Below are positions 16,831-41,632 of a stretch of DNA of 64,000 nt, in pieces. The notes beneath the pieces were generated by a model. The model made no database searches. It was given only the letters and a program-made list of their open reading frames with translations, and was not told the origin of the DNA. The stretch spans positions 62,001 through 126,000 of the forward strand of contig BGKB01000171.1 of NCBI GenBank assembly GCA_003116975.1, in the 5' to 3' direction. Origin of the DNA: Aurantiochytrium sp. KH105. Lineage: Eukaryota > Sar > Bigyra > Thraustochytrida > Thraustochytriidae. Position numbers and translations under genes: made by a program. The number at the start of each line of letters is the position of its first letter. Within the stretch, counting starts at the first letter, position 1.

Positions 16831-19800
16831 TTAGTTGGGATTACAATTCCTGCAGATTCGCTTACGCGGCTCAAGAGGGAGGCCGCAATCCGGGCAGACG
16901 CGAGCTTTGCTGCGCTTCCAACCCTTCGGTCCCGTTTGACGCGACTTTTTGGACCCACCGCCGCTACTACTGCTACCGCGGCCACGCTTGCCCCTTCCTG
17001 TCGACCTGCTCGATCTACTGTTGCTGCTACCGCCACCGCCACCACCAAAATTATTACCCATAGCGCCGCCGTTGCCACCTTTTTGAGGACAGTTGTTTGA
17101 GAAGTGGCCCTCTTGCCCACATGAAAAGCAAGTTAATCCTCCTCCTCCGCCGCCGCCGCCGCCGCCGCCGCCGATGGTACCGCCGCTGCCATGCCCAAAA
17201 TTGTTCTGTGCATGACTGCTCGTCGATCCTCTTTGTGGGCAGCTACTCGAAAAGTGTCCCACTTGTCCACACGAATAACATGTTGCGCTGGCACTTGGAC
17301 CTCCGCCACCGCCAAAACTATTCGTTCCGCTATCCATCTGAAGTCCTCCACGAAAGTTATTTGCGCCGCTAGTGCTCTTTTGAGGGCAACTGCTTGAGAA
17401 ATGACCTGGCTGGCCACACGAGTAACATGTTGCACCGGCAGCCGGGCCACCACCACCGCCACCGCCACCAAAGCCGCCGCCGCCACCAAAGCCACCACCG
17501 CCACCACCACCGGAGGGCGCTCCAGCGTCGTCGGACCACTGAAAGAATTCGCATTCCTCGCCACGTTGTCCACACTTGAAAAACTTGCGTCCCTTATTCG
17601 GCCCCTCCTTGCGAACCGTCAGCTCCACGGCCGGAAGTTGGTGCCCTGGACACACCACATTCTGCTCGTCACCTCCAGTACCAAATTGTGGTGCTTCCAC
17701 ACGGGGCGGCGCCGTTGCAACAGGAATAACACGATTCATCGGTGCAATAGGACGAGCGTAGGGTTCGCGCTGCTCGGCTCCACCGCCCTGAAAGCTGGAA
17801 ACCTGAGGATTGGCTTGTTGCAGAGGAGGCGCAGCCTGAACTCTCCGCGGTCCCTTGTTAGAGAACGCAGACGGCCCGCCGCTACTCTTGAACGAATCCA
17901 TAATGCAATCAAGTTCGGTCGAACGGTCGCTGCAACTTGGAGATACACACAGGTACAGAGGATTGTCCCAGCCTGGGGGTAGCGCGCTTGATTTAAAAAG
18001 AAGTTTTACCTTGCAGCCATTGCATGCTCGGCATTTTGCGCTTCCCTTTTTTGGAACCGACGCCTCGCGGACGGAGCGAGGAAAGTACAGGCGTTGTTTG
18101 CACGTCTTATTTTTACATCGCAGCGAAAAGCTTGCAGGTTCACCAATGGCGCCCGGAAACTTGACAAGCCGTAGCCCACCAGAATCGCCTCCTCCTCCCC
18201 CTGCACATTGGCGACACGGCAAAACGTCCACGTCATCGCCTTCGACGCCTCCGGAAAGTGCGCAACGCGCTTCGCGGCAATCCCGGCATGTCATGGTCCG
18301 TCGGATCAACATGTCTTCGATATCTCCTGACTTTGGGGGACAATGATAACATCGTGGACACACATTGAAACTCCACTCCCCGGGCTTAGCGCTCAAGACT
18401 TGAGTCTTGCATAGGTAGCATTCGTGCTCAACAGTCGAAATGGCACCACGAGGCAATTCGAAGGCCTCTGTACAGGATGAACATATTACTGCATTCAAAA
18501 TCGCTGTCGTTTTGCCGCCGCGCGGACCCGGCTTGCCCTCAACCGTGCGCGTGTAGTGGTCCATGGATTGATTTCCGCATTTTCCGCAACTCGAGATACC
18601 GCGCTTTTTAAGTCGATATTCCTTCTTGATTTGCTCGAGCTTGCGCGCATTTCCGCGCTGGACTCTTGTCGGAAGAAGATTGCCGCCTCTGCCATGGCCT
18701 CCACCACCACCATTACCTCCTCCTCCTCCTCCTCCTCCTCCTCCGCCGCCGCCGCCGCCGCCGCCGCCGTCACCGCCCCCACCACCACCACCGTCTCCGT
18801 TGTCAGGGTCTGCGGGATTGTCCATGTTGGCAGCGAAATTTTCATAGCCTTGCAGGTACTCTTCGACGGCTTGGTGCAAAAGGTTAACTCGTGCGAGCGT
18901 GGCTTGGAAAACGCCACGAAAACGTTCAATCATTGCCTGGATAACAGCCGGTTTCGTCGCCCGTCCCTGACAAATATCCTTGAGTTGCTGCTCCATATGA
19001 GCCCGGAGCGAAGGACCAGAAATCTCTTGCTCGTGACCAATGCGCTTGTATGCTTGGACAAGGGCATAACCAAGTGGACTTGGCCGGAAGCGCTTGACAC
19101 CCTGTCCCACTTTTGTCGCATACTCGCGGTCTTGAACTGTCTTGATGTGGTCTTGAATGGTTGCATCGGTTCCAATGCCATGTCGATCCATCAACCGAAT
19201 CAGCTCCGGCTCGGAGAGTAGCTCGGGCGGCACTGTTCGGCCGTGATGCATTTCCAGCACGCTTGGCACAAAGGTCTGGCCCTCTTCGAAACGAGGCAGG
19301 CTACGCTGCGCCCAGCGCTCGTAAACATAGATGTCCAAATAATTCCGCTCGAGTACCTCGAGGCCGGATGTCTCGAATGTCTCAGCGCCCATGCTGACCA
19401 CGACTGTGCTCTTGCTGCCCCGCGCGTCCCGACTACAGCAGGCTAGAAAGTGCCGCACAACAAACTCGTACACCGCTTTTTCTGGGCCCTGCAGCTGTTC
19501 AAGAGGCACGCACGCCGTCGGATGAATGGGGGGGTGTGCCTGATCGTTATTGCGACCCTGTCTGGGCATTTGGAACCCCCCAGCATCCAGCAACATCGCC
19601 GCGTAGCCGCCCCAGGTCGCATGTGCACGTTGAACGTCGACAAGGGCCTGAAGATCAAAACTTGCATCGAAGCTGTCCGTCTCCGTACGTGGGTAGCTGA
19701 TGAGACCCCGCTGGTAAAGTGACTCGGCGGCATGCATGGTGGCTTCCGAGGCCAGGCCCCGCGATCGTGAGAGCCGAATCTGCATTTCCACCGTCGAGAG

Positions 19801-20700
19801 GGGCACAGGCCGCCACTTGGTCGTCAAGCGCTGGTTCACACGCTCCACGCGCGCTTCCTGTGCCTCGACGCACATTTCAAAGAGCACAAGTGTCGTGAGA
19901 TGGTCATAAAGTTGGCCACGGCTCCAATGAAAATCACAAGCGGCTTCGGCGCTTGCTTGGTACGACATGCGAATCGTCCAGAAATCCTCGGCCACAAAAA
20001 GTCGAATTTCCTCAGCGCGCTCCACAATAAAGCCCAAGGTGGGGAATTGGCACGGCCCAAAGCTAATAAGGCGCTGCTGCAGGCCCATGTTTTCCCGCAG
20101 GTCAAGCGTTTGAAAGCGTGTAAAAGCCGAGCCAATACGGAGATCAATCTCGCTTCGTGTCTCGACGGCATCGACTTCATTCTGATTGAGGTCTCGCAGC
20201 GTGCGAAGCGCCTGCCACAGATTGGCCTCGTTGGCGACCGAGAATTGCGCGCGCTTCACAATAATGTTGGGTGCTTTTTCACGACAGGCCTCTGCAATCT
20301 CTTGACCAATTGCCTCGCCTTCACGGTCACAATCAGTCCAGATAATGAGCACGCGCGCGACTCGTGCCTCGCGCTGCAGAGTTTTGGCAATGGCTTCGCT
20401 TTGCGAACTCACCTTACGGATAACTGGCGCTTCGAAGAGTGTGCTTGGATTGCACGCATTCCAGCTTCGAAATTGGTCCGCAAAGTCGAGCTCCATGAGA
20501 TGACCCGAGACAGAGGTGACCACCATGGAAAACTCTTGCTCTTGCGCAAACATGGGTGGAATGGCGAACCTGCATCGAAAGTCGAAGCACCGGTTGTACT
20601 TGGAGAAGCCGTCGCGCGACCGGAACCCGTTCTGCGAGAGCACCTCTGCTACGCGTTTGGCAATCGACGGCTTCTCCGCCACGTTCAAGACTACCACCAT
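16831..20700 (-). CDS. TOP3A: DNA topoisomerase III alpha (type IA)
   Basis: The 1289-residue product starts MVVVLNVAEKPSIAKRVAEV, the TOPRIM beginning of eukaryotic topoisomerase III, with a clean A at -3 and G at +4. TOPRIM metal residues appear as DCDREGEAIG (near residue 118). The active-site Tyr is in LISYPRTETDS (Y336). The C-terminal half has several CxxC zinc pairs, a GRF-type zinc finger (about 1012-1057, with KFFKCGQRG), three CCHC knuckles of the type CYSCGQPGHFSSSC (about 1090, 1138 and 1188), and a last CxxC pair (PDCGLP, RNCNPN). Long Gly tracts join them. TOP3A with RMI1 and a RecQ helicase dissolves double Holliday junctions and works in mitochondria in animals. GRF and CCHC fingers are known on TOP3A; three knuckles plus a terminal ribbon is an extended version. 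No intron is evident. Confidence 0.95.
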   Translation of the reverse strand: MVVVLNVAEKPSIAKRVAEVLSQNGFRSRDGFSKYNRCFDFRCRFAIPPMFAQEQEFSMVVTSVSGHLMELDFADQFRSWNACNPSTLFEAPVIRKVSSQSEAIAKTLQREARVARVLIIWTDCDREGEAIGQEIAEACREKAPNIIVKRAQFSVANEANLWQALRTLRDLNQNEVDAVETRSEIDLRIGSAFTRFQTLDLRENMGLQQRLISFGPCQFPTLGFIVERAEEIRLFVAEDFWTIRMSYQASAEAACDFHWSRGQLYDHLTTLVLFEMCVEAQEARVERVNQRLTTKWRPVPLSTVEMQIRLSRSRGLASEATMHAAESLYQRGLISYPRTETDSFDASFDLQALVDVQRAHATWGGYAAMLLDAGGFQMPRQGRNNDQAHPPIHPTACVPLEQLQGPEKAVYEFVVRHFLACCSRDARGSKSTVVVSMGAETFETSGLEVLERNYLDIYVYERWAQRSLPRFEEGQTFVPSVLEMHHGRTVPPELLSEPELIRLMDRHGIGTDATIQDHIKTVQDREYATKVGQGVKRFRPSPLGYALVQAYKRIGHEQEISGPSLRAHMEQQLKDICQGRATKPAVIQAMIERFRGVFQATLARVNLLHQAVEEYLQGYENFAANMDNPADPDNGDGGGGGGGDGGGGGGGGGGGGGGGGGGNGGGGGHGRGGNLLPTRVQRGNARKLEQIKKEYRLKKRGISSCGKCGNQSMDHYTRTVEGKPGPRGGKTTAILNAVICSSCTEAFELPRGAISTVEHECYLCKTQVLSAKPGEWSFNVCPRCYHCPPKSGDIEDMLIRRTMTCRDCREARCALSGGVEGDDVDVLPCRQCAGGGGGDSGGLRLVKFPGAIGEPASFSLRCKNKTCKQRLYFPRSVREASVPKKGSAKCRACNGCKVKLLFKSSALPPGWDNPLYLCVSPSCSDRSTELDCIMDSFKSSGGPSAFSNKGPRRVQAAPPLQQANPQVSSFQGGGAEQREPYARPIAPMNRVIPVATAPPRVEAPQFGTGGDEQNVVCPGHQLPAVELTVRKEGPNKGRKFFKCGQRGEECEFFQWSDDAGAPSGGGGGGGFGGGGGFGGGGGGGGPAAGATCYSCGQPGHFSSSCPQKSTSGANNFRGGLQMDSGTNSFGGGGGPSASATCYSCGQVGHFSSSCPQRGSTSSHAQNNFGHGSGGTIGGGGGGGGGGGGLTCFSCGQEGHFSNNCPQKGGNGGAMGNNFGGGGGGSSNSRSSRSTGRGKRGRGSSSSGGGSKKSRQTGPKGWKRSKARVCPDCGLPLEPRKRICRNCNPN
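18700..18800 (-). repeat. Trinucleotide repeat encoding poly-Gly in TOP3A
   Basis: GGA, GGC and GGT repeats (seen as CCT, CCG and CCA on the plus strand) encode a Gly run of about 25-30 residues. It links the catalytic core to the zinc region. Slippage is likely between strains. Confidence 0.85.
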
Positions 20701-24621: not shown

Positions 24622-27600
24622 TTAGACAAAATCAAGATCGTCGTGGCGAAAGTCTGGGTCGTCCTCGTCTTCGTCGTTATCAAAGACGGAACGGGCATCT
24701 TTTCGCTTGAAAAGCATGGAGGAAAGGGTCGAGCCTCGGCGCCGGCGTGGCGTACGCGTAGTGTTAAACGTTGTGTGCGAATCGCTTGGAGCAGAAGACT
24801 TGGCACCGAAGAATGACTTACTTTGGTGCAATGTCGTGTCTGTTCCCGTAGTCTCGTAGCCATCGTCAACCTCGTCTTCATCTTCGTCTTCATCATAATA
24901 CTCGGTGCCCTCCTCGTCGGTGTTCACAGTATTCGTCATGAACTTGCTCAGGATACCCGTGAAACCAGTTGCAGCTGACAATGTCGATCCTCGTCGGCGC
25001 GAGGACAACTTGCTTTGTGGGCGAGGCTGTTCGCGCTGTTGGCGGCGTCGCTGTTGCTGCTGTCCCTGCTGCTGCCCTTGTTTTTGCTGCATGCCAAAGG
25101 CCTCGCCGGCCTTATTGTCCAAATCACTTGCCACAGAAAAGTGCAGCGAGGATGCTGAGGGATCTTGATGTCGCGCCCAATCCCCACGCCGCCCCTGAAT
25201 GCCTCCGCCCAGGCTTCGTTGACTATTCTGTCTGAATGAAGGCTCGCGGCCGCTGATGGGTTCCATCTCAAGCGACCTCGTCGAGATTCGACTATCCCAT
25301 GAAAAATGTGACCCGCGGTTCCGAGAAATGAGCGGAATCTTCTCGCGCGTGTGGCGGGGAAAGAGAGCAAAGGCGACAAAGAATAGCACCAAGGGTTCAA
25401 CGATGACAACGCCCACACCAAAGGCAATGACAGCGTGAAGAGCCCAAGATCTTGGAGTGGAAATATCCTTGGTTCCAATCGCCACCAAGTACGTGCATGC
25501 AGCAAATAGCCCAAGCATCAACAGCGCACAGAGAATTCTTGGTAAATTGCATCGCCTCGGACGCACATGATATGCCTTCTCGAGCCTGGCAAGGCCTCGC
25601 TCATGGCGTGCTAGTGCTACAGAGATATGCACTTTACCGCCATAGATGCGACGGAGGCCATCGTTGAATAAACGGAAAAACCACACGCTTGATGCAATGT
25701 TCTTGGCCAGACGGTAGTACTTGGAACGCATAATGTGGTCGTGCATTGCCTTCATGAAGATGAGCTGGCCACGCTTAATGAAAACCTGCATTTGACGCTT
25801 GCGCAGCTGCTCGAGCTCCGGATTGGCCGTGCGAGAAATGTTTCGCTCCAAGTCCACAAGCTCTGTGTCTTCAATCCTGTGCTGATTCGGGTTTCTCCAA
25901 GCCTTGTCGGCGGACCGGTTCTTGGGCCGCTTCTTGCGCTTGCGTACTTGCCCACTATTGTGCCAAGGCGAATCAACGATCGCAATAGCTTGCGCCTTAA
26001 GGTGCGCCACACGGCCCAGGACGCGTCGCTCGCTCTGTGCCAGCTTGTAAAGCGCATATCGATACACAAGAATGACAGTTGCAACCACAAGCGCGCCCAC
26101 GATGAAGCCCACCAACGTGAGCGACTGTTCTTCGAATTGATCACCGAGCTTATTCACCATGTACACGCTGGCAAAGGCGGCCAGCATGGCCAACGGGACC
26201 ACCACACTCCGCGCAATGCGACTTCGCTGCGGGTCGAAAACCAAAAGACCCGCTACAGAGTGGGCATTTGCCACATCGCCAAGGAGGTCAGAGAACGACT
26301 TGGTAGGATTCATCGGTGGCTGTGCGTGCGCACGAAGCTTTTGAAATGCATCGCGCTTCATGAACTCAAGGCTCCGAACGTTCTTACCAAAGTGGCGCTG
26401 CGCCAAAAACGCCAGCACCGCGCCACGCTGCACGCGATTAGCGTCACGGACATCCTGCGTATGCAACCACATGGAAAGAAACAGCCACGCGCCGATGGTT
26501 GCACCCAAGATGATCCCCAGCAAAGCCGGGTCAAAAGGCAAACCGGAGTCGACGACTTCGGACAACTGAATTCCCGCAAATTGGCTCCGCGAGGTGATCG
26601 GGCCGCACTCACAGGTAATGATATCCGACGTGCGATTGATGACGGCACAGGCATCAGAGTCCCAAACCTCTCCGGTCGAGTCCCACATGCTACACGAGAT
26701 TGCGCTTGTCGATGAGGCATCAGCATAAAGAATGTCCAAACTGAGATTGACGCGTCTCGACGAAGAGGCAAAAATCACAGACGAGTGCTGAAGCTCGAGA
26801 GACAAAACGTCTGTCACAACATTCTGTTGATATGCGGTGGTCTGTTGCGCGCGCTCCGTTGACGCAAGGTTCCGGCCTAACTCGGAAGCCTTGATATCAA
26901 TGTTGGCGAGCTTGGTCACAATAGCGTTGACGGTGTTCCCATTGACGCAAATCTCTTCCGGAGGAGAGCGCAATACCGAGACAATGACCTCATCGTAAAC
27001 GGCAGAGGGCCCAGGATCAAAGAGTTCGGAAGAGATTTCCACAAACGTGTAATTTTTTCCCGCATCCGTACTGGAACTCGCTGGTTGGTAGCGACCCGAG
27101 ACGCCATTGGAGAACTCCTTGTACGATAACGAGTCCATTCCAGAGAAGCTGACCACGAAGCTGCCTTGGCCTGAAAGCCGCGGGGCAAGGACTGTCTCGA
27201 TAATGTCGCTGTGCAAATCCGTGAGGGAAAAGTTGTATTGGCAGATCCCTGAGAGTGAGGCGAGCTCGGCGAGAACCTCCGACGCGATGCCCATGGCCCC
27301 CTCGGGAACGGAAAAGGCAAGGTTGGGCTCCACATTAGCTGCCGAGGCAACCTCCACAACTCGGGTGATCTCATTCCGCCAGAGACTCAGTGTAGTCTGG
27401 AACATCTCCGCGACGCGCTCGGCAAGGGCAATGTCATCGTCATCGAGACTGAGAGCGATCTCGAGTAGCACGAGCATGATAAGTTCGCCGAGCTGCGAAG
27501 AAAAGGTGCGTTCGTGCAGCAAGGTCAGGGCCCCCTCGAGCTGCGTGGTAATCTGAGACTTCAAGGTGTCCACGCCCTCATCCGAAAGGCTTTCGAGAGC

Positions 27601-30312
27601 ACGTGTAAGCACGGACGAATACGCGAGCTGGTCTCGTAAACTTTCGTCTGGATCCTCATCATCAACCTTGCTGGCAACGGTCACCTCATCAATCGATGAA
27701 GGCACGCTGAGTCGGATAAAGACCGGGTCTGATGCTGGGGACTCTGCACCGTAGCCGTCACGCACAAAGGCCACCACAGACGTGTACGATACGGTCTCGG
27801 TCTTTTGAGTAAAGGGCAGAACAACGTTCGACAACGTTGGGGAAGAGCTCCACTCCGAAATGGAAACGGGCTCCGCGCCCAGCGTGTTGCGCTCCAGCGC
27901 AAATTTATACTCGAAGACGTCTGTGTTTTCCGCATCATCGGCAGGAATAGCCGTCAGCGTGAAGCGCGTGACACCAGCTGTTCCTTGGGAGCTCGAAACC
28001 ACGACAGAAGGGGCCGCGGGGAAGCCGTACACTCGGAAACCAATTTCATTGGTATAACTCGACGCATTCGCCTGCTTCGCGACGAGTTCATATCGAAAGC
28101 TTACTTTTCCGGTGCTCACGGCAGGAACGGCGTAGGGCTTGATGGCGAGGTTTGGAGAGAGAGGGGATGTCGCATAGACCTCGTTGACCTTTTCAATCTC
28201 TGCAGCAGACAGTTCGCAGCTGGACCGTTCCACCAATTCCCCAATTTCGGCCTCAACGTCATCCGTGAACTGCCCTTCGCGACGGGTCCAGCAGTACTCG
28301 ACAGGGGTATCAGCGCGTGCCTGGACCACGCGCGTCGAGAGAACAATGCCTGCATGGGAGTACGTGACGTCCGCAACGTTGTTGATGGTCACTTTGATGG
28401 AGGTTTCAACCGGAGAGGCAGTAGGACTCGGCGTTGGTGTCGTGCCTGACGAAGTTGGTGTCTCGAGGGCGACCTCAGAGCCACAGATATCCGCCCATGG
28501 GCGCGTCAGAGAAGGTACCCGGCTATCTGAAAGGTTCGGGTTCTCAATAATGTATGCCTGCGCCTTGGCTCCTTCGTCCGAGTGTTCCATATTGTGACAA
28601 TGAAGAGCAACGCGGCCAAGAAAGGTGTCTGGCTGAAAGCGAAAAGAGACTGCTGCGCCCGTACGTGGGCGAACGGTGTCGAGCCAATCGCCTCGCTTGT
28701 GGAAACCGGTCTCGTCTTCGATATCGTGCAAAAGCTGGTAGTGATTGACGTGAATGTGAAGCGGGTGATTGTGGCTACTCTCGGTGAGCTCCCACTCTTG
28801 GACCTCGCCAAGTCTCATGACGGAGACATTGCGCTGCTCGGGCAACGCCTCGTCGGCCGTAATCCAATCCTTGGCAAATTCAACGTTATTGACGGAAAAG
28901 GGATTCACGAGAATGACCCACTGCAGAAAGTCAGGGGACTTCCAGCGCTCCTCAAAGTCAGGTCTCGCAATCGTCGCCGAGGCTTCCTGGACTTCGGCGA
29001 GCGTGAAGCCCGAGTAAGGACTTGGCTCACGGTCCAGAAGGTCGGCGAGATAAAAGGGAAGGCAAGCTTGCCATGAAAACGCAGTGTCCGGAAGTGCAGA
29101 CGTTTGCGTCGCACTAATGACCGAAATTGTAAAGAGAAACTCCCGTTGATACACGGGATCCTGCCGCGAGTCGTCAACAAGACCTTCCTCGTCAAACGCG
29201 TCAAAGTTGTCATACACCAAGGCTTGCGTACCTGGCTCACCGGAACAGCGAACAAGGACGTCGGCGCGATTGGCCGGATGAAGGTGAATCGAATGATTCG
29301 CAGCAAAGTTCAGGTCACGAGGGCCATCCCTAAGGTACACGCCATCGCGCGCAATCACTCGAACCTCGCAATTCGACGGAGTGGCAGCAGAGGCGTTGTA
29401 GATGGCCATTTTCAAGTCGCGCACCGCAGCAACGTGCGCAATGCGCCATCGATACCAGATGCCCTGTTCCACTTCTAGACGCGGTTTGTAAAGACCGTTG
29501 ATGAGGAAGATACCATCCGACTTGAAATTTGCAAAGGCATCTGTAGCAGAGTCAAAGCCGAGCCCGCTTACGTTGACTGCAAAGGTTGTGTCTTTGACCC
29601 CAATTCGATGTGAGAACGGATCATCCTCGACGCCGTCGGAAAGATCGAGAAGTCGGGGCGGATCAACGTGCTGCACAAAAATCACCTGCTCCGGCGTGTC
29701 CAAGAGCTCTGTGGGAATTTCGGTCCCATCGTCCGCATCGTCAATAATGAGCATGCCTGCTGCGCCGGCGCCAGTAAAAGCGACTGCCAAAGGATGCATG
29801 TGTGGATGGTACCAGTGCGAGCCACCGGCGTGGTCCGTCGGGAGCGTGTACACGTAGTCATGGCCCTCTCCCGGTGGAATCTTGAGTGCGACGTCATCTT
29901 CGTCTCCAGACACGTGGAGGCCATGCGTGTGGATATTCGAAGTATGATTTCCGGGCGATGGAGGATCGAGATCGTTTGTGTAACGAACAGTGACCTTGGC
30001 GCCCTTGGCCATGCGGATGATGGGGCCAGGCGCTGTTCTGGCGGCGCCATTGGCGCCATAGCCCTTTCCGTGCATCGTAAAGGATCCCTCGTGCGAGATA
30101 GTACGCGTCGTGCCGTCCGTGCTTTCCACGAGAAAGGGTAATTCCAAGACGGATGTGCCAAAGGAGAGGTCCATGGAGTCTCCATCGCCCAGAACGACCT
30201 CGCTCAGCGGGCAGTCGCTCAATAGAATTCCCTCCTCGTTCGAGTTGCAGTTCGCGGTTGTCTGCGCGCGTACAGCCTGCACCAGGAAGGCCACGAGAAC
30301 TACGCTGAGCAT
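24622..30312 (-). CDS. Multicopper oxidase fused to REJ-like/GPS stalk and multi-TM region
   Basis: I start this 1896-residue protein at the ATG at 30312, which opens a clear signal peptide (MLSVVLVAFLVQAVRA, cleavage before QTT). The frame is open to 30813, but that part is low complexity. Residues about 30-600 are a multicopper oxidase with cupredoxin copper motifs: NIHTHGLHVSG (about 126), HWYHPHMHP (about 165), HNHPLHIHVNHY (about 512) and LHCHNMEHSDEG (about 570). A Thr/Pro linker leads to beta-rich REJ/PKD-like sequence (about 630-870), a helical GAIN-like part, and a GPS-like motif with SCSMWDSTGEVWDSDAC and CECG (about 1204-1249). Then follow about five TM segments (near 1257-1280, 1362-1388, 1396-1424, 1584-1611 and 1620-1650) and an Arg-, Gln- and Ser-rich cytosolic tail. 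The enzyme domain should face outward. The second half is like polycystin-1 family proteins, but no PLAT domain or ion-channel pore was seen. Confidence 0.85.
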   Translation of the reverse strand: MLSVVLVAFLVQAVRAQTTANCNSNEEGILLSDCPLSEVVLGDGDSMDLSFGTSVLELPFLVESTDGTTRTISHEGSFTMHGKGYGANGAARTAPGPIIRMAKGAKVTVRYTNDLDPPSPGNHTSNIHTHGLHVSGDEDDVALKIPPGEGHDYVYTLPTDHAGGSHWYHPHMHPLAVAFTGAGAAGMLIIDDADDGTEIPTELLDTPEQVIFVQHVDPPRLLDLSDGVEDDPFSHRIGVKDTTFAVNVSGLGFDSATDAFANFKSDGIFLINGLYKPRLEVEQGIWYRWRIAHVAAVRDLKMAIYNASAATPSNCEVRVIARDGVYLRDGPRDLNFAANHSIHLHPANRADVLVRCSGEPGTQALVYDNFDAFDEEGLVDDSRQDPVYQREFLFTISVISATQTSALPDTAFSWQACLPFYLADLLDREPSPYSGFTLAEVQEASATIARPDFEERWKSPDFLQWVILVNPFSVNNVEFAKDWITADEALPEQRNVSVMRLGEVQEWELTESSHNHPLHIHVNHYQLLHDIEDETGFHKRGDWLDTVRPRTGAAVSFRFQPDTFLGRVALHCHNMEHSDEGAKAQAYIIENPNLSDSRVPSLTRPWADICGSEVALETPTSSGTTPTPSPTASPVETSIKVTINNVADVTYSHAGIVLSTRVVQARADTPVEYCWTRREGQFTDDVEAEIGELVERSSCELSAAEIEKVNEVYATSPLSPNLAIKPYAVPAVSTGKVSFRYELVAKQANASSYTNEIGFRVYGFPAAPSVVVSSSQGTAGVTRFTLTAIPADDAENTDVFEYKFALERNTLGAEPVSISEWSSSPTLSNVVLPFTQKTETVSYTSVVAFVRDGYGAESPASDPVFIRLSVPSSIDEVTVASKVDDEDPDESLRDQLAYSSVLTRALESLSDEGVDTLKSQITTQLEGALTLLHERTFSSQLGELIMLVLLEIALSLDDDDIALAERVAEMFQTTLSLWRNEITRVVEVASAANVEPNLAFSVPEGAMGIASEVLAELASLSGICQYNFSLTDLHSDIIETVLAPRLSGQGSFVVSFSGMDSLSYKEFSNGVSGRYQPASSSTDAGKNYTFVEISSELFDPGPSAVYDEVIVSVLRSPPEEICVNGNTVNAIVTKLANIDIKASELGRNLASTERAQQTTAYQQNVVTDVLSLELQHSSVIFASSSRRVNLSLDILYADASSTSAISCSMWDSTGEVWDSDACAVINRTSDIITCECGPITSRSQFAGIQLSEVVDSGLPFDPALLGIILGATIGAWLFLSMWLHTQDVRDANRVQRGAVLAFLAQRHFGKNVRSLEFMKRDAFQKLRAHAQPPMNPTKSFSDLLGDVANAHSVAGLLVFDPQRSRIARSVVVPLAMLAAFASVYMVNKLGDQFEEQSLTLVGFIVGALVVATVILVYRYALYKLAQSERRVLGRVAHLKAQAIAIVDSPWHNSGQVRKRKKRPKNRSADKAWRNPNQHRIEDTELVDLERNISRTANPELEQLRKRQMQVFIKRGQLIFMKAMHDHIMRSKYYRLAKNIASSVWFFRLFNDGLRRIYGGKVHISVALARHERGLARLEKAYHVRPRRCNLPRILCALLMLGLFAACTYLVAIGTKDISTPRSWALHAVIAFGVGVVIVEPLVLFFVAFALFPRHTREKIPLISRNRGSHFSWDSRISTRSLEMEPISGREPSFRQNSQRSLGGGIQGRRGDWARHQDPSASSLHFSVASDLDNKAGEAFGMQQKQGQQQGQQQQRRRQQREQPRPQSKLSSRRRGSTLSAATGFTGILSKFMTNTVNTDEEGTEYYDEDEDEDEVDDGYETTGTDTTLHQSKSFFGAKSSAPSDSHTTFNTTRTPRRRRGSTLSSMLFKRKDARSVFDNDEDEDDPDFRHDDLDFV

Positions 30313-30894
30313 CGTGACGGCCCTGTTCGACGCACTTCTTCGCTTGTCTCTTGGCGCAAAAGTAGTGGTAGCAGCTGCAGTAGCAGCAGCAGTAGCAGGA
30401 GCAGCAGCAGCAGCAGAATACGAACTGGTACTCCTCGCGCAACTCCTATTCCTCGACCTGTCCTCCTCGGCCATAGAGTTTGTCGCAGCGCCGCAGCCCC
30501 TCAACCTCATTTCCGTATTGCACGTGGCGCACGCCTCTCTTGGCGGCGCGGCGTGGGCGCGTTTTCGCCCCTCGCCGCCGCTGTCGACGCCGCCGCTCCT
30601 TCTCCTCCTGCTCCTGCTCCTGCCACCGCTGCACCTGCTGCTGGCGCGCGCTTCTGTGGCCTCCTCGCTCTTCGTCGCCGCGCGCTCCATGGCCAAAAAC
30701 GTGCTAGACCCGCGCGCGAGCCGCCGACCAGACGCCGCGCTCTCCGCCGATGGGCGTATGCCTACCCGCATGCCAGCGCCAGCAAGCACGCACGCAGGCA
30801 AGCAAACAAACAAACTACAATAACCAGCACGCCAGCCAGCGCGCGCACAACTTGGACGCTGTGCTCGCCTGGTTTGCTTGCTCGCTCGCTTGAC

Positions 30895-31693: not shown

Positions 31694-33121
31694 ATGATAT
31701 GCGTGGCCGACGGGAGCCAGACGAGCACGATGCAACAAAAGGAAACGGCAGCAGTCGGGCACGTGGCGGGCGCACCGAGCGACGATGGTGACGCGGCGGT
31801 CCACAAGGCGTACCGGATCAGGTGGCTAGTGATGCTTATTTTTTGCATGGCAAGCGCGTCAAACGCAGTCTTATGGATCACCTTTGCGCCCATTAATTCT
31901 CTCGTGCAAGAGTTCTATGCTTGCAGCGCAGCCGCTGTGAACGCGCTTAGTCTCGTGTACCTCATTGCGTATGTCCCGTTTTCCATTGTGGCCAACCTGG
32001 TTTTCAAGAAGCAGGGCATGTATCGGGCCATCGTCCTCGCCGTGTTTCTTGACTTTCTGAGCAGCCTTTTGCGATTCCTGAGCGCAGCATCCAACGCAGA
32101 GCCGCGCGGGGGAAGCGATACCGGGTATGCCCTTCTCTTAAGCGGACAAACGCTGGGAGCAATGGCACAGCCGCTCTTAACCAATGCTCCAGCACTCATG
32201 GCGTCGAGATGGTTTCCTACAAAGGAACGTGACGTAGCCGCGGTCGTCATGTCTCTTGCAAACCCATTAGGAATCGCAATCGGCTCGGTGCTACCGACCT
32301 TTTATGTCATTGGAGATGACGCTGGTGTGCGCATGTACGACCTCCTTCTCGTTGAAATGGGCGTAATGGCCGCTATCTTCATTCTCGCGTTGATTTTCTT
32401 TGCGGAGAAGCCCGAACTCCACCCGTCGCACAGCGAGACGCTCAAAGCAACGCAGCAGGAGCTCCCACTCAGGAGCGAGCTGGGCCTGATGCTGTCAAAT
32501 CGAGATTACCGCATTCTCTTTGTCTGCTTTGGGGTTGGTCTCGGATTCTTCAACGCGCTCACCACCCTCGTCGAGCAATTTGTAAACAAGAGTGGCTACA
32601 CGTCGGATGACGCGGGTTTGTTTAGCGGTTTACTCATCGGAACCGGCATTATCTCCGCCATCATTATTGGGTTGGTGCTGGACCGTGTGCACAAGTACAA
32701 CTTTGTGCTCAAGCTTCTCTTTGTTATTGGTGGCATGTTTGTGATCATCTTTGTGCTTGTCTTGCGTCCGAACAATATGCCTGTTCTCGCGTTCACTTTT
32801 GCTGGCATGGGGTCCGCCATGTTGCCTCTCCTTCCAGTCGTCTTTCAGTGCGCAGCCGAGTGTACCTATCCTCTACGCGAAGACCTTACCACGGGTGGGA
32901 TCATGAGCGCCGGTCAGGTCACTGGCGTAGTCTTTATTGTTGTCCTCGGGGAGATGGTGGATGCGCAGCCCGTATACGATGGCTACGTGTTCGAGCCCGC
33001 GTATATTTTGATTGTTGTTTGCATTGTCAGCTGTGTTCTGGGTATTCTTCTGTACAATGGCTCATACCACCGACTCAAGGCAGATCAAGATCCGCTCAGC
33101 CCGGCAAGCACAATCGCTTGA
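31694..33121 (+). CDS. FLVCR/SLC49-like major facilitator transporter
   Basis: The 475-residue product is a 12-TM major facilitator protein. After a polar N-terminus of about 35 residues, the first span (YRIRWLVMLIFCMASASNAV, followed by LWITFAPI) and the next block (LSLVYLIAYVPFSI) match the SLC49/FLVCR layout. The segment QTLGAMAQPLLTNAPALMAS, then RWFPTKER and NPLGIAIGSVLP, resembles FLVCR transmembrane helices 4-5 strongly. FLVCR proteins export heme or take up choline and ethanolamine; the substrate here is unknown. The frame is open upstream to a GTG at 31556, but the first in-frame ATG is 31694; another at 31730 has a better context (A at -3). No introns are evident. It converges on the LNG-repeat gene, with a duplicated 31-nt element in the 3' flank. 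Confidence 0.85.
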   Translation: MICVADGSQTSTMQQKETAAVGHVAGAPSDDGDAAVHKAYRIRWLVMLIFCMASASNAVLWITFAPINSLVQEFYACSAAAVNALSLVYLIAYVPFSIVANLVFKKQGMYRAIVLAVFLDFLSSLLRFLSAASNAEPRGGSDTGYALLLSGQTLGAMAQPLLTNAPALMASRWFPTKERDVAAVVMSLANPLGIAIGSVLPTFYVIGDDAGVRMYDLLLVEMGVMAAIFILALIFFAEKPELHPSHSETLKATQQELPLRSELGLMLSNRDYRILFVCFGVGLGFFNALTTLVEQFVNKSGYTSDDAGLFSGLLIGTGIISAIIIGLVLDRVHKYNFVLKLLFVIGGMFVIIFVLVLRPNNMPVLAFTFAGMGSAMLPLLPVVFQCAAECTYPLREDLTTGGIMSAGQVTGVVFIVVLGEMVDAQPVYDGYVFEPAYILIVVCIVSCVLGILLYNGSYHRLKADQDPLSPASTIA

Positions 33122-35695: not shown

Positions 35696-38600
35696 ATGGA
35701 GCGCGAGACGGCGCCGCTCGAGGGCGACAGCGTGGAAAAACGCGGCGACTCGCGCGCCGCGCGGCTGCAGGAGGAGCAGCAGCAGCAGGAGGAAACGGCC
35801 CGCGGCGGGGACGGCGACGGAGAGCTCGAAGACATTGCGCTCGATAATGACGACGACGACGAGGAGCACGTGGACGAGGTAGACGACCACGAAGAGACGG
35901 CGCCTGCCGCCGCGAACGAGCAGAGCGAACGGGAAGACGGCCACGTCGACGACAGGAAAGGAGACAGGCAAGGCAACAAGGAGGCCAGCCAAAGTCAAAG
36001 TCCACACGTGGCAGTACCGCCAGTCCCGGCAAGTGCTAACGAAGGCGACGAGCAGAAACGCCCGCCTTCGCCCACTGCCAGCTCCGTCTCCTCGACAGCG
36101 ACAACGGGCACCACATCACGCGCAGCCGTCTGCAGCGACCCGTCCCTCAATGACGCCTTACTTCAGCTTCAACTCTTACTGACAGCTCACGTGGCAAGAA
36201 TGTACGGCATTCTGTGGCCATCAGATAGTGGTTCTCGCAAACTCGTCGAGGCAGGCTTCTCACCCAAAAGGGTGGTGGCCCTCCGCAAGGTTTCCCAGCA
36301 GGATATCGAGCGTGGCCTCGAGCAGGTCCTTCAATATCTTGCCATTCTTTTGAGAGACCGCACAGGCACGGTCGTGCCCATGTGCGTGGTCTTGCTTCGC
36401 GTTCGCGAGCAAGCCATCTCCATGGATCCGCAGAAAGCGAAGAAGGCGCGTCTGCTGCCCTCGATTCAGCAGCGCGAACCCAAAGAGGCAATATCCGAGA
36501 CAAGTCTTGCCATGGAAGGGATTCTTTTTAGCACCTTGAATGAGCTCCTAGCAGGCGTCTCGGCAGCTACAGTGGTGGAGCCGCTCGACGCCCGCGGCGA
36601 AGCCGTCGTGAACAAATTCGTCGATATTGCCTACGGGCATTTTGCCAAGCATCTCAAATCTGCCGAAGCTGGATCCCTGGAGCCGTGTGTGGCGCTCATT
36701 GGGCGTCTCTCTTGGTTCTGTCTTCCACGCACATTGGAGAACTTTGCCACGAGAATGGGAAAGGTATACTTTAATGCCAGCGCACTCGAGTACGTGCCCT
36801 TTATGCAAATTCTGTCGCGACGCGTCAAGTACTCTCTTCTTCGGACTCCCCAATGTAGACCCGCATGTCTCTCGTTCACGCAAGCTTTAGCTAAGCTGCT
36901 AAAAACCACCTCGTGCGGCGAGCTTATTGACGAGACCTTTCGTTGCGTTGTCTTTATGCTCTCCCGACTGCGCCGTGAGCACACGCAGCAACAACAATCG
37001 CTGCAAAATTCACAGCGATATTTTAAACGAAGCACTTCGTCGGCCAGTTCGGTGGTTTCGGCGAGCTCGGCTGGCTCAGAGACCTCGGCCTCATCGCCAT
37101 TAGCATCGTTCGAGGCCGCCATGGGCACCGCGCTCGAGGCCATCTTTGGCTATGCCCATGGGTACGCCTCGCATGGCAAGCACCTTCCGTCGGCGCTCGA
37201 GGCGATGGAGACTCTTGTAGGCTGGCAAGCCTTGCAAAGCCCCTTGCCTGCTCTTGTGAGTTCGCAGCACGAACGCCTCTGCAAGGAGTTGCTCCGCCGC
37301 GTGTGCAATACAACGACACGAATCTCTGGCCTTGATCACATGCAGCGCTACCTCAAGAGTTTACCGCCGACGAGCTCTTTGCCTGGCCCAGAACCCCTCG
37401 ATGAGATCCCCAAGGCTCTCTTTGTCGATGAAGCCGTACCCCGGGCGCAGGAAGCAGCGCTCGTGAGTGCAGTCATGGTCGAGCTGGGACGATGTTTTCC
37501 ACGCCTTTTTGACGCAACAATGGCGCGCGGACTCACAAGCACCAAAACGACCACGGCGCAACGCGCCATTTGCCTCAATGCGCTTTCCAAAATTGCGCAG
37601 TCTGTCCCTCAAGGCGAACGTTCGCCGCTTCGAGGCTACGCAAAATTTGTCATCAATCTCTCTGGCCGTGACTCGCCAGTCGGTACGGTTGCCGAGGCGC
37701 TGGCATGCTTTCCCATGCTTGGAGAGCAAAGCCAACAGCTGCTACAGAACTGTGTAAACTGCGCGTTTGGCTTTGATCTGACACTTGTCGACGCAGGCCG
37801 CGATGCGTTGATCCGGTTTTGCCAGCTGGGTCCCATCTATGCCGAGAAAGCCATCATGGTCACGGTAGAGTCCCCATCCCTCAAGTTAGTGTGCACCATG
37901 CAGCATACCAAGGCACCGCTCGATACGGCTCAGATTTCAAGCAGCGTCACGACTCTTGAATGCATTCTTTGCGCTGCCTTGGACAAAGGTTTCGAGTCTT
38001 CCGATCTTGTCGCCGAGGCTGGAGCCTCGTTGCTTCTTGCGAGCACGTATCCCGATGAAAAAGTCCAGGCCAAGGCGCGGGATGCTCTTGAGCGTATTGG
38101 GACAATCACTGACAAACATGGCGAGAGTCAGTACCTGCAGCGTGCGCTTGACAAGCTCTTGCTCGGGCTCTTGGGCGCGAGCGGTTCGGCGGACTCTTGT
38201 GGCGGAGCTCGGGTTCAAGCTCTAAACAAGCGACTGGCGCGAAAAGCGGGCTATTGCGATTTTGTTGCGTGGTGGCGCAACCAGTGCACCCTGATTTGCG
38301 CGGCAAACCTGCCGCATAGCAACAAGCCACCCTTTGTGCGCTCTCTTGTGCACGAGTACCTGACGGCCTCGAGCAATCGGTTGCAAAATGCGGCGCTTAT
38401 TTCCCTCAGTCATTTGAAGGATTGCCATGAGGTTCTTGAGAAGCAAATGGCCATGCAGTCGTTGCAGGCGCGCAATGAGATCTTTAATGGGCTTTTTGTA
38501 AAGCTTATGGCAGCCTTGCGCGATTCGTATCGCGGTGGCGCGTTGGAACGTCGCGTGCATCAAATGGTTCGTACGTGGATCCAGTCTTCTGGAGATGAGG

Positions 38601-41600
38601 TGGCTCGTTTGCACATGGCCAAGTGGACCCCGCACGTGGTTGAGGCGGCAGCGCGACTGTTGCGCAAGTTTGTTCTTTTTGGCCAACTGAATGCGTTTCC
38701 TGATCCTGATGTGGCGCGAGACCAGGCCATTTTCCTCATTCGAGAGTGGCATCGTACACGTGACCGTGCGCCGCGTCTCGCCGCGGTTTCGGACGCTTTT
38801 GTTACCTTGCTGGACTCGGGCCATCTCAAGACGGTTGACGCGCAGTCGTTTGCACTCGAAATGCTCTCGGGCAGCGCCGGGTCGAAGCGGTATCAGCAGT
38901 TTGGTCTGCGCGCACTTTTACGTCAAAACCTCGATGCCATGCTCAAGCATTATTACGAGGCGGTCTTACGCTCCTTTGATCCAGATCGTTGGGCCAAGGA
39001 GCCCGCAGGGATCATCCCAATCGGGAGCCCCGCATCTGCTCGTGCAAATGATCCTGCTGCCAAGGGTCTCGCGAACAAGAGCACTGAACGAAGCCCCTTT
39101 ATGGTCCACATTGCTTCGGCTGTACTTTACGCCCTCGATGCGTCGGTGACGAGCGATCACACGCTTGCGGAAGGTCTGCGACCGCAAATGGCCCTTTTGG
39201 TGTCGCTGCTCTTTGTGCACCCACTTCGAGAGATGCGCGAGCTGGTCGCAGGATGGGTACCGCACGGCACATTTCTGGGTCTGCCTCACCGGGACTTTTC
39301 TCCTGCGCTTGTGTCCAACAAGCTCTCCGGCCTCGAACGCTCTGTTCTTGTCTCTAGATTCCTCGCCACGCACTGGGAAGCGTCGTCGATCGACGAAATG
39401 GTCCAGGGCGCTGCCAAGGTGTCGCCGTACTTGAGCGACGAGCACATTAGCTGTCTTTTGCAGGTGCTTGAACCGTGGCTTGTTCAATGCTACCCTCGCG
39501 CTACGCGACAGCCTGGACGTTTGATCACCCGACTTTTGCGACTATGTGCGCGACTTCGATCCGGCGACAATGATCCCGCATGGGGCATTTGGCGCAGCGT
39601 GAGTCTCGAGGAGGGCCTCGAAGAAACGGTGCGCACGATGGTGAATTTTGTGGTGGCCATGGAGCAAGACAACGCGCAACAGCGTTCCGCGATGGACGCC
39701 ATGAGTTCTCTTTTTTCGAAATCGTCTCAACTTGGCGATGCGCCTGTTGACACGCTTCATGCGCTGGTTGCCGCCTTTCCGGAGCCCTCGTGGAAAGTGC
39801 CAGACAAGGACTCCTTTATTCGCGAGGCTGAAGAGGCAAGTGCCGCGGACGCAGAGGCGATTCCAGGTTTGACTGCGACAGAGCGAGCGCGAGCCGAGGA
39901 GGATACTCGAACTTCTCGTGCAGTCTTGCGCCTCGTAAATCATGCCCCATTTTTGACGCGCAATTTCTCTGGCGCGGACCTCGCACGTGTGCTCTACTTT
40001 ACATTTGTAGAGGAAGGCGTGGACAGCGCGCTGAGTCAGCGCACGCTTCGCGCAGTGAATGAAGAGTTCGCGGCAGGCATGCCGGCGCTCTTGCTGCACT
40101 TTGAAGCTGATGGCGCTCGCGAAGACCATGACGACGGCGTCGCTCAGCAGGTTGGCAGTGCTGCTGGTATGGCCAGTGCAAACGGACATGGCAACCTTGC
40201 GCGTAGTAGCAGCAAGAACTTGGGTGATCTTGATATTGGCGAGGTGACCAGCGTCGGGAGCGGAGGAGACTGGCTCTCTGTCATTGCAGAGCATAGCACG
40301 GAAACCGTGCGTAAACTTGCGGAAACGGCGCTTCATTGTGTCATTTACTGCCTCGAGCCTGGGAAGCGGACTCGCGCGATCATGCTGCTGCAGAATATCT
40401 CGACGACAGCCCTGGAGGACAGCTTTGTGCGCGAGCTTGCGAAGCGGATTGAGTCACGCTGCATGTATCTTTTGAAGCTGCTCGAGCTGGGAAATGGAAA
40501 CGCGGCGACCGCGCCGCGTCTGGAAGCTCTCGAGCACCTTTTCATTCTCGGCGAGTGGCTAGCTTCGGCACCGTCTCTGGAGCGGCGTTTGCGCGAGGAT
40601 CTCGCGATCCTTGGCACGTGCGCGTTGTCGATTCCGGTAGTCATGCGTCCGAACCCGTTCTCGCGCATTCGCGTCTCGGCACTCAAGCTGTTGCAGTCGA
40701 TTGGACCCTCCGACGATGGGGAGGCTGCAGACCCAGTTTTGCAGGATCATTTGGTGGGCTGTCTGGTGCACCAAGAGGTAGCCCCTCGGGCGGCAGAGAT
40801 TATTCTCTCGCAGGGGGCAGCGCACGGCCTACCGGAGCCTGCGAACTTCGTCTTGCTTGCAGCAGCGATTTGCCTCGTGCAAGCGTCAGCGTCTGGGTCA
40901 CGCGTCCAGGCCGAGACGCAACGCGGTCTTGCGCGTTATCTCGTCAACCAAGTGGAGGCCGTAGCGGACACCCGTCCCCAGGTGAGCGGGCTATTGGACC
41001 AGCTGAGTGCACGGCTTTTGGCCCTCTCGGAGCCGAGCAAGTCAATGTTGATGGCCTCGGCCTCGCCGTCGTCTGCAGTGCGGCGCTCGAGCGACGCGAG
41101 CGAGGATCGCGAATCCGTGGTGGCGCTTTCGTCGTCGGTTTCGACGCCATCCGACTTTGTGCAGAATTTTGTTGCGACTCTTCTTCGCGGATCTGGGACG
41201 GCTGCTGTTGCTATTGATGGTAGTGGTGATGCTGACAAAAATGGGAACGGTGGCATCGATGTTAGCACAGAGAGCTTCCAGGCGGTGCTGCAATTTTTGG
41301 TGCAGACGATAGAAGTTGGCAGCGAACCTTGGGCCTTTGGCGCGCTGGAGCTCTTGCGCGAGTGCATCAAGCATCGCGAAGTGGCGAGCTTGCTACTGGA
41401 GCCAGAAAATAGATTGCTGGAGACCGTCATGGACGGTCTGGTAGTAGCTTTGGAATCTTGGCCACGGGCGCGGCGCGCGGACATCTTTAATGTAATGGCG
41501 ACGCTGCGGCTCAAGCCCGCGAGCTCGTTTGACTTTATTCACGCTGAGACGACTGCGCTAGCGGCGAAGCAGCGATGTCTCGTGAGCGGGCTTGCACACT

Positions 41601-41632
41601 GTAGAGCACAGCTCGACGCCAATTTGCACTAA
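35696..41632 (+). CDS. Furry/Mor2/Tao3-like cell morphogenesis scaffold
   Basis: The product has 1978 residues. The ATG is in an ideal context (gccATGg). Residues about 1-140 are acidic and disordered. From about 145 to the end the protein is almost all helical, with HEAT/ARM-like repeats. Segments such as NKFVDIAYGHFAKHLKS, ALEYVPFMQILSRRV and LVSLLFVHPLREMRELVAGW lie in the order expected for the N-terminal Furry domain and following repeats. Furry proteins are scaffolds for NDR/LATS-type kinases with MOB, controlling polarity and morphogenesis. Family members are usually 2200-3000 residues, so this one is short, perhaps lacking the C-terminal part. Identification is by fold order and scattered motifs, not strong identity; another large HEAT protein is possible. 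The single uninterrupted frame leaves no doubt that the gene is real. Confidence 0.75.
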   Translation: MERETAPLEGDSVEKRGDSRAARLQEEQQQQEETARGGDGDGELEDIALDNDDDDEEHVDEVDDHEETAPAAANEQSEREDGHVDDRKGDRQGNKEASQSQSPHVAVPPVPASANEGDEQKRPPSPTASSVSSTATTGTTSRAAVCSDPSLNDALLQLQLLLTAHVARMYGILWPSDSGSRKLVEAGFSPKRVVALRKVSQQDIERGLEQVLQYLAILLRDRTGTVVPMCVVLLRVREQAISMDPQKAKKARLLPSIQQREPKEAISETSLAMEGILFSTLNELLAGVSAATVVEPLDARGEAVVNKFVDIAYGHFAKHLKSAEAGSLEPCVALIGRLSWFCLPRTLENFATRMGKVYFNASALEYVPFMQILSRRVKYSLLRTPQCRPACLSFTQALAKLLKTTSCGELIDETFRCVVFMLSRLRREHTQQQQSLQNSQRYFKRSTSSASSVVSASSAGSETSASSPLASFEAAMGTALEAIFGYAHGYASHGKHLPSALEAMETLVGWQALQSPLPALVSSQHERLCKELLRRVCNTTTRISGLDHMQRYLKSLPPTSSLPGPEPLDEIPKALFVDEAVPRAQEAALVSAVMVELGRCFPRLFDATMARGLTSTKTTTAQRAICLNALSKIAQSVPQGERSPLRGYAKFVINLSGRDSPVGTVAEALACFPMLGEQSQQLLQNCVNCAFGFDLTLVDAGRDALIRFCQLGPIYAEKAIMVTVESPSLKLVCTMQHTKAPLDTAQISSSVTTLECILCAALDKGFESSDLVAEAGASLLLASTYPDEKVQAKARDALERIGTITDKHGESQYLQRALDKLLLGLLGASGSADSCGGARVQALNKRLARKAGYCDFVAWWRNQCTLICAANLPHSNKPPFVRSLVHEYLTASSNRLQNAALISLSHLKDCHEVLEKQMAMQSLQARNEIFNGLFVKLMAALRDSYRGGALERRVHQMVRTWIQSSGDEVARLHMAKWTPHVVEAAARLLRKFVLFGQLNAFPDPDVARDQAIFLIREWHRTRDRAPRLAAVSDAFVTLLDSGHLKTVDAQSFALEMLSGSAGSKRYQQFGLRALLRQNLDAMLKHYYEAVLRSFDPDRWAKEPAGIIPIGSPASARANDPAAKGLANKSTERSPFMVHIASAVLYALDASVTSDHTLAEGLRPQMALLVSLLFVHPLREMRELVAGWVPHGTFLGLPHRDFSPALVSNKLSGLERSVLVSRFLATHWEASSIDEMVQGAAKVSPYLSDEHISCLLQVLEPWLVQCYPRATRQPGRLITRLLRLCARLRSGDNDPAWGIWRSVSLEEGLEETVRTMVNFVVAMEQDNAQQRSAMDAMSSLFSKSSQLGDAPVDTLHALVAAFPEPSWKVPDKDSFIREAEEASAADAEAIPGLTATERARAEEDTRTSRAVLRLVNHAPFLTRNFSGADLARVLYFTFVEEGVDSALSQRTLRAVNEEFAAGMPALLLHFEADGAREDHDDGVAQQVGSAAGMASANGHGNLARSSSKNLGDLDIGEVTSVGSGGDWLSVIAEHSTETVRKLAETALHCVIYCLEPGKRTRAIMLLQNISTTALEDSFVRELAKRIESRCMYLLKLLELGNGNAATAPRLEALEHLFILGEWLASAPSLERRLREDLAILGTCALSIPVVMRPNPFSRIRVSALKLLQSIGPSDDGEAADPVLQDHLVGCLVHQEVAPRAAEIILSQGAAHGLPEPANFVLLAAAICLVQASASGSRVQAETQRGLARYLVNQVEAVADTRPQVSGLLDQLSARLLALSEPSKSMLMASASPSSAVRRSSDASEDRESVVALSSSVSTPSDFVQNFVATLLRGSGTAAVAIDGSGDADKNGNGGIDVSTESFQAVLQFLVQTIEVGSEPWAFGALELLRECIKHREVASLLLEPENRLLETVMDGLVVALESWPRARRADIFNVMATLRLKPASSFDFIHAETTALAAKQRCLVSGLAHCRAQLDANLH

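Follow-up and report, generated by a model that had tools for sequence, protein, structure and literature searches.

A multicopper oxidase joined to a REJ-like/GPS stem and a predicted five-pass membrane unit in a single reading frame of Aurantiochytrium sp. KH105

A single gene in the 64,000-nucleotide stretch of DNA analyzed here (the window) encodes, judging from domain profiles, motifs, and hydropathy, a multicopper oxidase (MCO) fused to a REJ-like/GPS stem and a membrane part with five predicted transmembrane (TM) segments. This architecture had been proposed in a preliminary description of the same DNA, and the sequence comparisons reported below confirm it: the single reading frame said to hold both oxidase and stem is intact over its full length and is repeated on a second haplotype. 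The reading that we favor, with a probability of roughly 60%, is that the product would be an extracellular oxidase, permanently tethered to the cell by the stem and a five-pass anchor and accompanied by a secreted paralogue.

Gene structure and the oxidase head

On the minus strand of the window, 1,896 codons run uninterrupted from an ATG at 30312 to a stop codon at positions 24622 to 24624. From the N to the C terminus, they encode a leader, the MCO, a Pro/Thr-rich linker, a REJ-like repeat, the GPS, the five TM segments, and a 245-residue tail (Table 1). Since the frame remains open upstream to position 30813 and contains four more in-frame ATGs in both haplotypes (which differ in this upstream start region by 19 mismatches and by gaps of 35, 1, and 6 bases), the ATG at 30312 is the likely, rather than a firm, start codon. 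The hydrophobic stretch that follows it is likely a signal peptide.

Table 1. Features of the fused gene (positions in the window; residue numbers of the 1,896-residue protein in parentheses)
Feature	Position	Strand	Basis
Whole ORF, 1,896 aa plus stop	24622..30312	-	Same frame in allele on C223
Hydrophobic leader, likely signal peptide (1-17)	30262..30312	-	By eye
Three-domain multicopper oxidase (about 50-592)	28537..30165	-	
Copper motif 1, HTHGLH (128-133)	29914..29931	-	
Copper motif 2, WYHPHMH (167-173)	29794..29814	-	
Copper motif 3, HPLHIH (516-521)	28750..28767	-	
Copper motif 4, HCHNMEH (571-577)	28582..28602	-	
Type-1 copper axial position (Cys+10, 582), Ala for Met/Leu	28567..28569	-	
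Pro/Thr-rich linker, oxidase to stem (617-639)	28396..28464	-	Translation; allele dN/dS
Last repeat, REJ-like (residues about 765-875, bounds set by eye)	27688..28020	-	hhalign, shuffles
GPS motif retaining four Cys and two Trp (1206-1241)	26590..26697	-	Pfam, profile searches
Position of cleavage tripeptide, Pro-Ile-Thr (1238-1240)	26593..26601	-	Alignment
TM1 (1263-1281)	26470..26526	-	Hydropathy
TM2 (1369-1387)	26152..26208	-	Hydropathy
TM3 (1398-1416)	26065..26121	-	Hydropathy
TM4 (1593-1611)	25480..25536	-	Hydropathy
TM5 (1633-1651)	25360..25416	-	Hydropathy
Tail of 245 residues, predicted to be cytosolic, with stretches that are Gln-rich or acidic	24625..25359	-	

The oxidase head has the three-domain cupredoxin fold of an MCO. 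In a Pfam scan of the protein, its outer domains scored above their cutoffs (PF07732, Cu-oxidase_3, residues 92 to 193, E = 2.5e-14, 53.8 bits against a cutoff of 21; PF07731, Cu-oxidase_2, residues 478 to 586, E = 4e-12, 46.5 bits against 20.4), and the middle domain, PF00394, gave no match at E ≤ 1. The complete set of four His-rich cupredoxin motifs noticed at the outset was recovered, with all 11 of the residues (10 His and 1 Cys) expected to bind copper. The axial position of the type-1 (T1) copper stands out: it is occupied by Ala in the window MCO and by Ser in a fused paralogue (C86/C46; see below), whereas the three-domain bacterial MCOs Thermus thermophilus laccase and Escherichia coli CueO carry Met; among the 80 bacterial MCO loci kept for comparison, the 74 with the motifs had Met (68) or Leu (6). 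Met, Leu, or Phe at this position is typical of MCOs but not obligatory. According to one report, a laccase engineered from axial Met to Ala was still active, its T1 potential being 409 mV instead of 357 mV, and contained less T1 copper (PMC6487685). Because of that copper loss, it is conceivable that Ala or Ser at this position could make for a weakened copper site. Compared with the bacterial sequences, the window MCO is 24 to 30% identical, and in a tree with 74 of them, the fused MCOs formed a clade of their own on a long branch (1.83), the deeper placement of which we disregarded in view of a warning that long branches were meeting.

Could the fusion be an artifact, i.e., two genes joined by the assembly or by reading through a true gene boundary? 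The assembly (76 Mb in 367 contigs) looks diploid, with the examined loci present in near-identical pairs, and the second copy of the gene (C223:27289-32973) encodes a 99% identical protein in the same frame, the two stretches of DNA being colinear and 95.4% identical over 8,087 bp. Between these alleles, dN/dS was 0.08 overall (103 synonymous and 27 nonsynonymous changes), with values of 0.07 for the MCO, 0.06 for the stem, 0.10 for the TM part, and 0.18 for the tail; across the junction itself (residues 600 to 680), it was 0.09 (8 synonymous and 2 nonsynonymous changes). The lack of a Pfam REJ match in the window protein would suit an accidental join, but since the frame is intact on two contigs and dN/dS is low across the junction, and with a paralogue showing the same domain order, an assembly chimera was rejected, and we regard an artifact of either kind as extremely improbable.

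Stem, membrane half, and relatives in the same genome

A lack of GPS and REJ matches in profile searches had been named in the preliminary description as grounds for refuting it, and the outcome was split: the GPS was recovered by profile, while Pfam REJ gave no match in the window protein at E ≤ 1. Nevertheless, when hhalign was used to compare the region after the linker with genes of this genome that carry REJ, they matched with a probability of 92.9 (E = 3.7e-7), and in pairwise comparison with one of these genes (C140/C30), none of 300 shuffles reached the score. By these measures it is homologous to the REJ end of those genes, and its designation as REJ-like is based solely on that homology. 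The GPS itself scored 19.5 bits (E = 0.0015, residues 1206 to 1241) in the protein scan, below the Pfam cutoff of 22.5, and 25.9 bits, above the same cutoff, in a six-frame search of the genome. Searches of the PDB with GPS profiles built from the window protein plus either the C140 gene or the MCO paralogue led to adhesion GPCR F1 (E = 2.4e-6 and 0.0011, respectively), and in GPS-versus-GPS comparisons, 0 of 300 shuffles (MCO paralogue) and 1 of 300 (C140) reached the score. GAIN/GPS-like regions had also been suggested. Between the GPS and the REJ-like repeat, the pairwise signal for a GAIN helical subdomain was near chance and not clear against any of three relatives, the score of residues 906 to 1200 being reached by 14 of 300 shuffles (MCO paralogue), 99 of 300 (C140), and 295 of 300 (C15/C6); for two unrelated sequences compared as a control, the figure was 203 of 300. 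A single-sequence structure model of the stem (pLDDT 36.6) was too poor for use.

The GPS lies before TM1, as in proteins of the polycystin-1/REJ kind. The TM segments were called from a hydropathy scan, and sidedness was read from hydropathy together with loop charge. With five segments, short outer loops, and basic inner loops (14 and 41 K+R versus 7 and 14 D+E), the protein fits a topology with the N terminus outside and the C terminus inside, although the tail itself, with 37 K+R against 40 D+E, is not basic; the outward-facing oxidase of the preliminary description agrees with this predicted orientation. From the GPS to TM5, the protein resembles the C140 gene (pairwise E = 2.45e-13), and its TM part was matched in score by none of 300 shuffles against that gene. 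Homology with the C15 gene, by contrast, is weak in each segment, 2, 6, 17, and 295 of 300 shuffles reaching the score for the REJ-like part, the TM part, the GPS, and residues 906 to 1200, respectively. A GPS-5TM profile gave no direct match to solved polycystin-1 at E ≤ 10, a result that excludes nothing. In the window protein, Pfam found no PLAT domain at E ≤ 1, no PKD_channel domain (i.e., there are five TM segments without the channel half of a polycystin), and no signaling domain.

Profile searches of the genome, the counts of which are lower bounds, recovered at least three MCO genes, at least two GPS genes, and at least two Pfam-REJ genes, each on two contigs. Of these MCO genes, two bear a stem of this kind. 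The second of the two (C86/C46; 1,307 aa from the first in-frame ATG) has an MCO 45% identical to that of the window protein over 636 aa, a linker consisting of a long Pro/Thr repeat (Pfam PT, just below cutoff), and a stem related to that of the window protein (pairwise E = 4.4e-8). Its GPS-like motif (pairwise E = 0.001) was missed by Pfam GPS. It is less constrained than the window gene, with dN/dS values of 0.16 for the MCO, 0.62 for the linker, 0.29 for the stem, and 0.25 overall. In both haplotypes, its frame ends 23 residues past the last GPS Cys, and the protein is predicted to be a soluble counterpart of the window protein that lacks the membrane half. We considered whether TM exons had been missed downstream, as one haplotype does have an in-frame hydrophobic stretch after the stop codon. 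This was rejected, because in the other haplotype a stop and a frameshift interrupt the stretch and because a tblastn search of both loci with the TM halves of three relatives gave a best E value of 0.24, where the GPS used as a control was found at E = 7e-4 and 1.6e-4. Three weaker hydrophobic stretches within the paralogue's stem (at 866, 926, and 1053; scores of 1.63 to 1.92) are read as not membrane spanning. Since two diverged paralogues share the order MCO-stem-GPS, the fusion appears to predate the duplication that gave rise to them.

The third MCO gene (C54/C117) encodes 684 aa with hydrophobic segments at residues 7 to 25 and 120 to 138 and without a stem. The C140/C30 gene, a frame of 2,907 codons, combines LNR (Notch), REJ, GPS, and five TM segments; its GPS reads His-Ala-Ser, and cleavage there may or may not occur. 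The C15/C6 gene (C15:306500-316400; 2,441 aa) combines fibronectin type II, REJ, and, by our reading of its hydropathy, five TM segments, with a degenerate GPS region that contains an extra hydrophobic stretch and has no Pfam GPS match. No relative of either half was confirmed in viral contigs.

Known systems differ from the window protein in several respects. Membrane-anchored MCO ferroxidases at the outer cell surface are familiar from hephaestin and yeast Fet3, and hephaestin and ceruloplasmin form a pair of tethered and soluble MCOs; hephaestin and Fet3 are, like the window protein would be, MCOs held at the outer surface, but they have one C-terminal TM segment and lack a REJ/GPS stem. 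Polycystin-1 and the sea urchin REJ (SpREJ) proteins share with the window protein a GPS before TM1, and its REJ-like repeat would correspond to their REJ region. The window protein departs from them in having five TM segments rather than 11, no PLAT match, no channel half, a REJ region invisible to Pfam, a lost cleavage His, and an enzyme as its head. The SpREJ family is itself diverse, its members ranging from no predicted TM segment up to 11, with varied domains and with PLAT in 5 of 10 (PMC1934368). Among stramenopiles, the brown alga Ectocarpus has a 1,427-aa protein, Esi0130_0068, with REJ, GPS, and six or seven predicted TM segments, for which the available part of the report gives a polycystin channel match and mentions no MCO head (PMC4700764). 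The window protein may work like a tethered MCO, and its stem is of the polycystin-1/REJ kind. The author of the preliminary description knew of no such combination, and among the matches listed in a search of the open-licence literature, judged by title and start of abstract, we likewise found no description of an MCO fused to a stem with REJ or GPS; a search of open-licence full texts returned no paper on a thraustochytrid multicopper oxidase. The same fusion may be present, unannotated or undiscussed, in other genomes.

The GPS and possible roles of the protein

The preliminary description offered two roles, both as inferences: an outward-facing oxidase that can be released by self-cleavage at the GPS, or a copper/oxygen-linked receptor. 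The first of these is not supported. In alignments, the tripeptide Pro-Ile-Thr of the window GPS pairs without gaps with the His-Ala-Ser of the C140 gene, so that the His at position -2 is replaced by Pro and Thr is kept at the nucleophile position. The paralogue has no His-Leu-Ser/Thr triplet in its GPS-like motif either; its triplet reads Leu-Asp-Asp if aligned by eye without gaps, a place where MAFFT puts a gap. In a review of adhesion GPCRs, the usual tripeptide is given as His-Leu/Ile-Ser/Thr, and mutation of the -2 His is said to abolish cleavage (PMC13197933). Because this His is lost, the window protein is expected to be an uncleaved tether to which the oxidase remains attached. A stem that self-cleaves to give a two-part protein with a sheddable oxidase half would draw on the kept Cys/Trp framework and Thr of the GPS, but given the lost catalytic His and the state of the paralogue's motif, we rejected it as the main reading and hold it to be very unlikely. 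A GPS of this kind could still be cut by another protease.

Under the tethered-oxidase reading, for which secretion, topology, catalysis, lack of cleavage, and substrate are all inferred, a secreted-type MCO would be held outside the cell by the REJ-like/GPS stem on a five-pass anchor of the polycystin-1/REJ kind, with its N terminus outside and its long tail in the cytosol. A type-1 copper whose axial position is open would accept electrons from an outside substrate [Fe(II), Cu(I), or phenolics], and O2 would be reduced to water. Without self-cutting at the GPS, the oxidase would remain on the cell, and the soluble form would come from a second gene, the paralogue that lacks the membrane half, rather than from shedding. 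In a narrower form of this reading, the protein would be a ferroxidase that works, like Fet3 with Ftr1 in yeast, in a pair with an iron permease of the FTR1 type. FTR1 matches were found on two contigs (C24/C112; Pfam E = 8.8e-31), which we read as one gene in two haplotypes, and both fused MCOs keep an acidic stretch, DIED, beside the T1 His; together these suit Fe(II) as a candidate substrate. As the FTR1 gene shares no contig with any of the MCO genes and could be served by the third MCO, however, we consider the pairing less likely than not.

Alternatively, the protein might be a receptor whose MCO head senses a metal, a phenolic ligand, or oxygen, with signaling by the five-pass part and its long tail, perhaps together with PKD-channel proteins. 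The homology of the membrane half with a REJ-GPS-5TM gene (C140), the retention in both haplotypes of a long basic loop and the 245-residue tail, and the presence of 45 matches to PKD_channel in the assembly, which looks diploid, all speak for such a role. Against it, the window protein lacks a channel half and any signaling domain that Pfam can find, its kept copper motifs fit an enzyme, and its paralogue does without the membrane half, and we consider a receptor role unlikely. A catalytic receptor, in which the redox state of the MCO or its turnover on a metal, O2, or a phenol outside the cell would be relayed through the uncleaved GPS stem and the five-pass unit to the cytosolic tail while the soluble paralogue acts in the medium, seems to us rather unlikely; if true, a redox enzyme would have taken the place of the ligand-binding head in a polycystin-like receptor.

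Should the tethered-oxidase reading be correct, the polycystin/REJ stem and membrane unit would amount to a modular display platform on which heads are swapped in protists, the heads in this one genome being a copper oxidase, LNR, and fibronectin type II, one of them an enzyme. The gene would also provide natural examples of a GPS retained without its catalytic His and of a type-1 copper site with an axial Ala.

Neighboring genes and other observations

Head to head with the MCO gene lies a gene for an MFS transporter (window positions 31733 to 33118, plus strand; PF07690, E = 5.7e-22), which by eye resembles FLVCR; the two genes possibly share a promoter region. Farther along the same strand is a 1,978-aa open frame (35696 to 41632) for which Pfam gave no hit at E ≤ 0.001. 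The PKD_channel matches (PF08016) were counted at E ≤ 0.001 over both haplotypes, and that they make up a large set for a protist is an impression. Elsewhere in the genome, a PUFA-synthase-like locus scored 930 bits against a curated cutoff of 1,010, with weaker matches in 11 of 14 control genomes; it agrees with a labyrinthulomycete source without proving it. Finally, on the minus strand of the window (16831 to 20700), a topoisomerase III-like gene combines a Topoisom_bac match (E = 5.6e-102) with GRF, a long run of poly-Gly, and zinc knuckles of the CCHC type, three in number.
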